Below, piece by piece: positions 8,311 to 10,601 of a DNA stretch of 32,089 nucleotides. The notes below the pieces were generated by a model. The model was not told the DNA's origin, made no database searches, and saw only the letters and a program-made list of their open reading frames with translations. The first letter of the stretch is position 1. The number at the start of each line of letters is the position of its first letter. This DNA comes from Candidatus Magasanikiibacteriota bacterium (GTDB lineage: Bacteria > Patescibacteriota > Patescibacteriia > Magasanikbacterales > UBA922). The DNA is taken from positions 1-32,089 of the forward strand of contig JAAZJX010000012.1 of the NCBI GenBank assembly GCA_012800155.1, in the 5' to 3' direction. Both the position numbers and the translations under genes were made by a program.

Positions 8311-9609
8311 TTAAGGTTTTAATCTATTAATCGTTCTAGGAAAAGGAATGCACTCACGAATATGTTCTACACCAGTCATCCAGCGTACCATTCTCTCTAC
8401 ACCAATTCCAAAACCAGAATGTGGAACAGAACCATATTTTCGTAAATCTAAATACCAAGAATATTCTTTTTCACTCATACCACTTTGTTTAATTCTAGAA
8501 AGAAGTAAATCAAAATCATCTTCACGCTGAGATCCACCAATTATTTCTCCAGCACCTTCAATTCCAATTAAATCATCATTCAAAACTCTTGAATCATCTT
8601 CTGGATCAATCTTCATATAAAATGGTTTGATATTTTTATCCCATTTTTCAATAAATACTGGCACTTCAGAATCTTGAGTCAATAATCCTTCATCATCATT
8701 ACCTAAATCTTCACCGTATTTAATATCTGAACCCAAACTTTGCAATTTATTAATTGCTTCTTTGTAAGTTAATCTAGTAAAAGACTTTTCCAAAACTTTT
8801 TTAAGTGGTTCAGTATTTCTCTCCAAAATTCCAAACTCAACTGTACATTCAACTAAACATTTTTTAATAATATATTTTATCAAACCCTCTTGAATTTTTA
8901 AATTTTCCTCATGTTCAATAAAAGCTCCCTCAGCATCCATCATCCAAAATTCTGATAAATGGCGCTTAGTTTTTGATTTTTCAGCTCTAAAGACTGGTCC
9001 AAAATCATAACAACGGCCTACACTTGCAATCGCTGCCTCAATATATAATTGACCAGATTGAGATAAATAAGCTATTCCTTCGTCAAAATATGGTACGGGA
9101 AACAAAGTAGTAGTCCCTTCACAAGCATTAGGAGTAAAAATTGGTGCATCTACTTTTATAAAACCTTCTTGATGTAAATACTCATTAATAGCAGTAATTA
9201 TTACATCACGCACTCGTAAAATTGCCCATTGTTTTTTGGATCGTAACCATAAATGACGATTATCCATAAGAAATTCTGGACCATGTTCTTTTGGACTAAT
9301 TGGATAATCTATTGCTTGTTGAATTAATTTAAAATTTTTAACTTGTAACTCAAAAACTCCTTCTTGTTTTGGATGTTTACTTACTATTCCAGAAATTTCA
9401 ACTGAAGATTCTTGAGTGGTTTTTTCTACCTGTTCCCACATTTCTTCAGAAATATCATTTTTAGAAACTACACATTGAATAAATCCTGATCCATCGCGTA
9501 ACTCTAAAAAAGTGATTGAGCCACTAGAGCGTTTATGATTAAGCCAACCTTTTAAAATCACTTCTTGATTAACAAATTGAGTTAAATCTTTAATAAATGT
9601 TTGTGACAT
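8311..9609 (-). CDS. asnS: asparaginyl-tRNA synthetase
   Basis: GWLNHKRSSGSITFLELRDGSG OB fold, class II motifs, GFGIGVERMVRWMTGVEHIRECIPFPR C-terminus. Confidence 0.95.
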   Translation of the reverse strand: MSQTFIKDLTQFVNQEVILKGWLNHKRSSGSITFLELRDGSGFIQCVVSKNDISEEMWEQVEKTTQESSVEISGIVSKHPKQEGVFELQVKNFKLIQQAIDYPISPKEHGPEFLMDNRHLWLRSKKQWAILRVRDVIITAINEYLHQEGFIKVDAPIFTPNACEGTTTLFPVPYFDEGIAYLSQSGQLYIEAAIASVGRCYDFGPVFRAEKSKTKRHLSEFWMMDAEGAFIEHEENLKIQEGLIKYIIKKCLVECTVEFGILERNTEPLKKVLEKSFTRLTYKEAINKLQSLGSDIKYGEDLGNDDEGLLTQDSEVPVFIEKWDKNIKPFYMKIDPEDDSRVLNDDLIGIEGAGEIIGGSQREDDFDLLLSRIKQSGMSEKEYSWYLDLRKYGSVPHSGFGIGVERMVRWMTGVEHIRECIPFPRTINRLKP

Positions 9610-10053: not shown

Positions 10054-10086
10054 ATATAAACCTGTATTGTTAATACAGGTTTATAT
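10054..10086. terminator. intrinsic terminator of the small-ORF unit, possibly bidirectional
   Basis: 15-bp stem around AAACCTGTATT-gtt-AATACAGGTTT, flanked by T-rich sequence on both strands. Confidence 0.75.
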
Positions 10087-10180: not shown

Positions 10181-10217
10181 TTAATTCATCTTAAACAAAA
10201 ATTACTTTAACTACCAA

Positions 10218-10265
10218 AATAAACTCAAACCTACAATAACCGCGTTAACCTGTCTACCAATCGCC
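10218..10265 (-). pseudogene. decayed tRNA-Asn-like copy B
   Basis: rc GATTGGTAGACAGGTTAACGCGGTTATTGTAGGTTTGAG aligns to tRNA-Asn with a 4-nt gap. Confidence 0.55.
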
Positions 10266-10268
10266 TTG

Positions 10269-10341
10269 CTCTCCCGGTAGGGCTCGAACCTACAACATCT
10301 GCATTAACAGTGCAGTGTTCTACCAATTGAACTACAGGAGA
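10269..10341 (-). tRNA. tRNA-Asn (anticodon GTT)
   Basis: TCTCCTG/CGGGAGA acceptor, GTTC/GAAC D stem, CTGCA-CTGTTAA-TGCAG anticodon arm, GTAGG-TTCGAGC-CCTAC T arm. Confidence 0.95.
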
Positions 10342-10392
10342 GCATGACGGACAGACAGCGCATTATTACACCAACTCAACTACTCAAAATAA

Positions 10393-10416
10393 AATACCCA
10401 CCGATCGGTGGGTATT
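10393..10416 (-). terminator. intrinsic terminator (3:4 hairpin) of a predicted Asn attenuator
   Basis: perfect palindrome AATACCCACCGATCGGTGGGTATT followed on the minus strand by TTATTTTG. Confidence 0.85.
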
Positions 10417-10433
10417 ATCTAAAAAAATAAAAA

Positions 10434-10511
10434 CTATACCACACCATCGGGAGATAACAAATTATTATTGTTATTTAATTGTCGCAAAGACAATTTTGAA
10501 TATAGTTTCAT
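10434..10511 (-). CDS. putative attenuation leader peptide MKLYSKLSLRQLNNNNNLLSPDGVV
   Basis: 25-codon ORF with five tandem Asn codons (AAT AAC AAT AAT AAT) between a promoter and an attenuator terminator, upstream of tRNA-Asn. Confidence 0.8.
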   Translation of the reverse strand: MKLYSKLSLRQLNNNNNLLSPDGVV

Positions 10512-10519
10512 ATATTTTT

Positions 10520-10547
10520 ATTTTAGCACTTAAATTTTAATTGTCAA
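10520..10547 (-). promoter_or_regulatory. sigma70-type promoter of the leader peptide/tRNA-Asn unit
   Basis: TTGACA, 16-nt spacer, TAAAAT on the minus strand. Confidence 0.75.
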
Positions 10548-10601
10548 ATATAACTGTTGATAAATAAAAATTACAAAAAAATATTATTATAAAATAAAAA
10601 A

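Follow-up and report, generated by a model that had tools for sequence, protein, structure and literature searches.

Upstream of a tRNA-Asn gene in a Candidatus Magasanikiibacteriota genome lies a short open reading frame (ORF) rich in asparagine codons and followed by a terminator. This locus raises the question of whether the tRNA gene is controlled by ribosomes that translate the very codons its product reads. The window, i.e., the whole stretch of DNA that was analysed, comprises 32,089 nucleotides (contig JAAZJX010000012.1 of assembly GCA_012800155.1), and the locus is read on its minus strand. The sequence makes it very probable that a ribosome-mediated transcription attenuator controls the tRNA-Asn gene.

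Organization of the leader region

The predicted regulatory region consists of the following elements:

10434-10511, minus strand: leader peptide ORF MKLYSKLSLRQLNNNNNLLSPDGVV plus stop codon TAG; 25 codons, with ATG at 10511-10509 and TAG at 10436-10434
10461-10475, minus strand: five Asn codons in a row, AAT AAC AAT AAT AAT, the putative sensing codons, read from the sequence
10501-10508, minus strand: strand 1, AAACTATA, whose partner is TATAGTTT at 10438-10431 (duplex of -13.8 kcal/mol)
10430-10446, minus strand: strand 2, TGGTGTGGTATAGTTTT, the 5′ arm of the predicted antiterminator, overlapping the stop codon; it forms in a simulated stall at the first Asn codon
10407-10421, minus strand: strand 3, TAGATAATACCCACC, common to antiterminator and terminator according to duplex and masked folding
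10385-10416, minus strand: intrinsic terminator AATACCCACC-GATC-GGTGGGTATT (strands 3:4), with the hairpin at 10416-10393 and the T-rich tail TTATTTTG (-15.1 kcal/mol)
10268-10341, minus strand: tRNA-Asn(GUU), the putatively regulated gene, the only tRNA-Asn found in the window's genome

The leader ORF with its five Asn codons, strand 1 and its partner, the terminator with its T-rich tail, and tRNA-Asn(GUU) as the next gene were all found on the minus strand where the initial annotation had placed them. For the 2:3 pairing, the GGTG(U)GGTAT arm (GGTGTGGTAT, 10445-10436) was likewise retained, but the strand-3 segment ATACCCACC had been placed one base off and lies at 10415-10407, not at 10416-10408. 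Thus, the leader, three alternative hairpins, and the terminator stand directly upstream of tRNA-Asn in the window. Three terminator-like sites were found in the region versus 0.1 expected in shuffles. Three features had been overlooked by the initial annotation: the promoter of the leader, the decayed halves of an outer tRNA-Asn, and the terminator that separates tRNA-Asn from asnS.

Proposed mechanism

RNA polymerase would start a few bases before the AUG of the short Asn-rich ORF, and a ribosome would follow the polymerase on a nearly leaderless transcript. When Asn-charged tRNA is plentiful, the ribosome would proceed to the stop codon and cover strand 2, strands 3 and 4 would pair, and transcription would terminate just before the tRNA. 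A ribosome stalled on the Asn codons would leave strand 2 free to pair with strand 3; the terminator would not form, and transcription would continue into tRNA-Asn and, in some lineages, into asnS as well. Slow decoding of Asn codons would, in effect, yield more tRNA-Asn. Because the product tRNA reads the leader's own codons, the circuit would represent a negative feedback on Asn decoding capacity. We infer leaderless translation, stalling, read-through, and the dependence of read-through on charging from the sequence, and the anatomy of the leader suggests that the charging of Asn-tRNA is what would be sensed. Against this mechanism, it can be argued that extra tRNA would be of no help when asparagine itself is short.

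Two kinds of tRNA-Asn and conservation of the leader

The tRNA-Asn genes collected from the family, order, and class of the window's organism amount to 104 distinct loci and are of two kinds according to the D arm: the first carries TAGTTCA/GAAC and variants, and the second carries TAGCTCA/GAGC. A short upstream ORF with at least four Asn in nine codons was found at 51 of 59 loci of the first kind versus 0 of 44 of the second (Fisher p 3e-21). Both kinds of tRNA-Asn(GUU) occur together in genomes G020, G044, G054, G090, G118, G172, and others. In these genomes, the leader was found only at the first kind. AsnRS scored above the curated cut-off in all 30 tested genomes that have tRNA-Asn of the TAGTTCA/GAAC kind; in the seven tested genomes that lack AsnRS, only the TAGCTCA/GAGC kind was observed, and GatB is present almost everywhere. 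Because no tRNA-Asn of the first kind was found without AsnRS, the two kinds may be charged by different routes, namely by AsnRS or by Asp-tRNA amidation.

Asn-rich leaders that differ in sequence (MKYQRTNNSNNNRLLKIG, MKNLRNNNSNNNCLLKIG, MIYQIHINNNNGNNNCH) were already present in the first three relatives in which tRNA-Asn was seen a short distance before asnS, and a strong Asn run is also seen in the leader of locus L157 (MKFTRQNNNNNNNNRYMAG). An extended set, composed of the class loci and named loci, comprises 84 distinct loci of the TAGTTCA/GAAC kind, and at 77 of them a short ORF rich in Asn precedes an intrinsic terminator. The terminator lies between leader and tRNA-Asn in all 77 leaders (48 of 48 in a smaller set). 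Runs of at least five AAY codons occur only three times on both strands of a 984-kb relative (G027); together with the 77 of 84 loci that have an Asn-rich leader and a terminator, this rarity places the arrangement in the window beyond chance. Several apparent exceptions have the leader further upstream; at L094 and L180, which carry tRNA-Asn of the first kind, no leader was seen.

The 77 leaders encode 75 different peptides in which the Asn run is kept and the remaining peptide is not. A run of at least five Asn is present in 64 leaders, while the corresponding counts are two each for Ile and Gly and zero for Lys, Phe, Leu, Thr, Ser, and others. In one set of 48 leaders, AAT was used 216 times and AAC 65 times. 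Conservation of the run in relatives, in frame with the ATG and within an otherwise variable peptide, bears out the initial annotation. As for frame-disrupting substitutions, the run is in frame generally, and a single leader departs from this: upstream of tRNA-Asn at L156 (G090), the run is one base out of frame with the ATG, at a homopolymer of seven A, which possibly reflects an assembly or sequencing error or else a frameshift-dependent leader.

These peptides bear directly on an alternative in which the nascent leader peptide arrests the ribosome, or in which slow translation in general, and not the supply of Asn-tRNA, is what the leader responds to. Any ribosome stall upstream of strand 2 would also free strand 2, and drug-sensing leaders work in this way. 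However, arrest by a peptide depends on conserved residues in set positions, whereas the 75 peptides have just Asn codons in common and are enriched in no other residue, which makes this explanation unlikely. As for the attenuator predicted to respond to Asn decoding, the comparison shows that it is not peculiar to a single locus but recurs in many genomes of the class.

Distribution across lineages and other tRNA genes

One genome per species (85,462 species) was scanned for four consecutive Asn codons located 68-98 nt before the conserved part of tRNA-Asn. The pattern was found in 37 places: three elsewhere and 34 in Patescibacteria records, two of which are titled only 'bacterium' and were assigned to Patescibacteria by the leader and tRNA that they carry. 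The 34 matches belong to Magasanikbacteria, Komeilibacteria, Kuenenbacteria, and Kerfeldbacteria or come from records whose names say no more than Parcubacteria, Patescibacteria, or bacterium. Although the pattern is blind to frame, the run is in frame with an ATG in all 34. The matches in Klebsiella (L198), Clostridium (L209), and Chryseobacterium (L211) were rejected as due to chance, as they have no leader ORF or no tRNA-Asn. The 77 leader loci described above likewise all come from Patescibacteria (Ca. Magasanikbacteria, Komeilibacteria, Kuenenbacteria, Kerfeldbacteria, and kin), and a related pattern was found in none of about 350 genomes of Patescibacteria outside the window's class. Judging by the record names, this class probably corresponds to ABY1 in GTDB.

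The loci examined in the window's genome contain 43 distinct tRNA genes, one of them tRNA-Asn, and no cognate-codon leader was found at the others. A match at the Leu(GAG) tRNA (6 Leu) was discarded, as it appears to fall within the 3′ end of the preceding gene, read in a different frame. A search of the complete relative G027 (984 kb) for leaderless leader-terminator units yielded 48 candidates, most of them weak, among which the Asn unit is the only codon run of such a kind before a tRNA.

Co-variation and geometry of the alternative pairings

The initial annotation described three mutually exclusive pairings, and this description holds across genomes: 2:3 and 1:2 co-vary, and 3:4 is the terminator in every leader. 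When strands were swapped between genomes, the 2:3 pairing averaged -15.18 kcal/mol for own strands versus -9.09 kcal/mol for swapped strands (z -18.7, 0 of 20,000 permutations). A shuffled strand 3 gave a z of -0.9 to -2.4 and a reversed one a z of -5.9; in a dereplicated set with one leader per terminator 5′ 7-mer (n = 60), it was -16.7. Base composition as the cause of the effect was ruled out because strand shuffling removes it. The swap test is independent evidence for the predicted 2:3 pairing. The 1:2 pairing gave z values of -7.1 to -8.7, the latter for the extended set, with an effect of approximately zero when shuffled; it is weaker and less universal than 2:3, and its strength is lower in some species than in others.

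The position of strand 2 relative to the Asn codons and the stop codon also agrees with the classical mechanism, as had been claimed. In particular, the distance to the beginning of strand 2 is 30 nt from the first Asn codon and 13 nt from the start of the last one, and strand 2 spans -4 to +11 relative to the stop codon (all medians). Masking the first Asn codon as if occupied by a ribosome led to a predicted antiterminator 2:3 in 75 of 75 leaders before strand 4 exists, and masking the stop codon in the same manner led to a predicted terminator 3:4 in 75 of 75; as the limits of strand 2 were taken from the best 2:3 duplex, this masked folding is a consistency check and not an independent proof. 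Folding without a ribosome gave 3:4 in 32 and 2:3 in 48 of the 75. The RNA of the window, folded in this way, adopts 2:3 rather than 1:2 plus 3:4, and its no-translation state might correspond to read-through. Taken together, conservation of the Asn run, its frame, co-variation, the terminators, and the geometry support the initial reading of the locus as a classical attenuator acting on tRNA-Asn.

Putative promoter and probably near-leaderless transcript

A putative promoter lies immediately upstream of the leader:

10520-10547, minus strand: TTGACA - 16 nt - TAAAAT, with TG before the -10 hexamer; 11/12 consensus, -10 ending 8 nt before the ATG

Because the -10 box lies so close to the ATG, the mRNA of the window is probably almost leaderless. 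Across 48 leaders, TTGACA-17-TATxxT predominated among the best promoters, and the median distance from the -10 to the ATG was 9 nt; in almost all cases the leader ATG is 5-11 nt downstream of a near-consensus promoter. Given the usual start distances, we infer that the transcript starts within a few nucleotides of the AUG. Leaderless leader mRNAs are known from Sinorhizobium trpL (PMC7298713) and Streptomyces lividans (PMC8079986). Moreover, the terminator ends at most 35 nt before the tRNA at 55 of 77 loci, which leaves no room for a separate promoter.

It could be argued that the short ORF is untranslated and that the locus combines an ordinary terminator of an upstream transcript with an AT-rich repeat, tRNA-Asn having a promoter of its own; after all, the genome is AT-rich, and AAT repeats can come from slippage. 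Both the near-consensus promoter found just before the ATG in nearly all loci and the short distance from terminator to tRNA speak against this view. It is rendered very unlikely as well by the 34 of 34 runs in frame with the ATG, the mixture of AAT and AAC codons, the co-variation of the strands, and the absence of the leader from tRNA-Asn of the TAGCTCA/GAGC kind.

Equally little weight is given to the proposal that the terminated leader RNA or the Asn-rich peptide acts in trans, with attenuation of tRNA-Asn being secondary. The leader transcript probably starts near its own AUG, as does rnTrpL of Sinorhizobium (PMC7298713), and a role in trans has been reported for the rnTrpL/peTrpL system of that organism. 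However, peptide and RNA sequences are unconserved outside the Asn run and the pairing strands. Least credible of all is direct binding of uncharged tRNA-Asn by the leader RNA, be it a T-box riboswitch or some other element: in Firmicutes, aminoacyl-tRNA synthetase genes, asnS included, are regulated by T-boxes, but no T-box was found in the window at Rfam gathering thresholds or in 10200-10560 at E ≤ 5, no other Rfam element was found either, and the leader is just ~120 nt long, with a coding run as its conserved element.

Genes probably under control of the attenuator

Two features downstream of tRNA-Asn define what the putative attenuator may control in the window:

8311-9609, minus strand: asnS, asparagine--tRNA ligase (equivalog match), the next protein gene; directly after tRNA-Asn in some relatives
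10054-10086, strand not assigned: bidirectional terminator between tRNA-Asn and asnS, from a terminator search

In the window, asnS is located 659 nt from tRNA-Asn and beyond this terminator; thus, it is probably outside the transcript. It follows tRNA-Asn within 160 nt at seven loci, which are members of at least two families, and at most other loci no asnS was found within the downstream stretch examined. These arrangements support the view that the attenuator would act on tRNA-Asn by itself in most genomes, with asnS also included in some. In G040, G045, G047, G050, G204, G250, and G165, a second class II synthetase-like gene of ~455 codons, ~30% identical to asnS, stands beside asnS. The window's genome also contains a 339-codon asnS-like gene (G000:C80:1014-1943) with a weak AsnRS family match (46 bits), whose product is possibly asparagine synthetase A of the AsnRS-derived type.

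Nested tRNA-Asn copies

The intact tRNA-Asn of the window is flanked by two remnants, both identified by eye:

10354-10390 (approximate ends), minus strand: decayed 5′ half of an outer tRNA-Asn that carries the intact gene in its anticodon loop; an intact version of this arrangement is present in L053
10215-10249 (approximate ends), minus strand: decayed 3′ half of the outer tRNA-Asn (GTTAACGCGG...GTAGGTTTGAG)

A tRNA-Asn inside the anticodon loop of a split outer tRNA-Asn-like sequence is observed in the window (10390-10215) and at L053, L039, L057, L117, and L168. The outer tRNA is decayed in the window, while in L053 all four of its stems (acceptor, D, anticodon, and T) appear to be intact. 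The nesting suggests that tRNA copies inserted repeatedly into a tRNA gene governed by the same attenuator. Upstream of tRNA-Asn at L112, L039, L057, and L158, small palindromic repeats (CCGCCCAAGGCGG...CCGCCTTGGGCGG) are situated in the D loops of outer decaying tRNA copies, as if a miniature hairpin element targeted tRNA genes.

Comparison with known attenuators

Within a class of small-genome bacteria, almost every tRNA-Asn of one kind has the leader, and this turns homeostasis of tRNA supply by decoding demand into a testable idea. It would also imply that leaderless translation is coupled to transcription in these cells, and it raises the question of why asparagine only.

Leader-peptide attenuation is textbook knowledge for amino-acid operons and some synthetases; E. 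coli pheST is an example of an aminoacyl-tRNA synthetase gene with an attenuator. With attenuators of the trpL, hisL, leuL, and thrL types, the predicted leader shares a short ORF with a run of regulatory codons, the 1:2, 2:3, and 3:4 pairings, the terminator, and the position of strand 2 at the stop codon. It differs from them in that a tRNA instead of a biosynthetic enzyme would be regulated, the codons are those of Asn, the mRNA is probably nearly leaderless, and the hosts are Patescibacteria. Synthetase attenuators have been described for leuS, trpS, alaS, and thrS of Streptomyces lividans (PMC8079986) and for hisS of bacilli (PMC2965389). They too have a cognate-codon-rich leader peptide upstream of the translation machinery for that amino acid, and several of the Streptomyces leaders are also leaderless; here, in contrast, the first and usually only regulated gene would be a tRNA, asnS lying within 160 nt in the seven loci only. 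The rnTrpL/peTrpL system of Sinorhizobium meliloti (PMC7298713) resembles the present one in that its attenuator RNA begins at the leader's own ATG, but it regulates the Trp biosynthesis gene trpE(G) in an alphaproteobacterium. T-box riboswitches likewise couple tRNA charging to transcription of aminoacyl-tRNA synthetase genes; however, they sense the tRNA by direct binding, and the window locus has no T-box match.

A survey of attenuation by premature terminators (PMC2965389), published in 2010, makes no mention of tRNA genes, and leader peptides were known from Proteobacteria and Actinobacteria only before it added hisS of Firmicutes. Among the open-access papers that were searched, which exclude most subscription journals, no report was found of leader-peptide attenuation of a tRNA gene, of an Asn leader, or of a case in the Candidate Phyla Radiation, in line with the earlier statement that no described tRNA-Asn or CPR case was known. 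It is likely that nearly leaderless attenuation of tRNA-Asn is an old, class-wide system of Patescibacteria, in which a tRNA gene would set its own expression by the decoding speed of its own codons, and that it is the first described case where the regulated product is the tRNA measured by the leader. As far as could be found, the mechanism is a known one, and its target gene, amino acid, and phylum are new.
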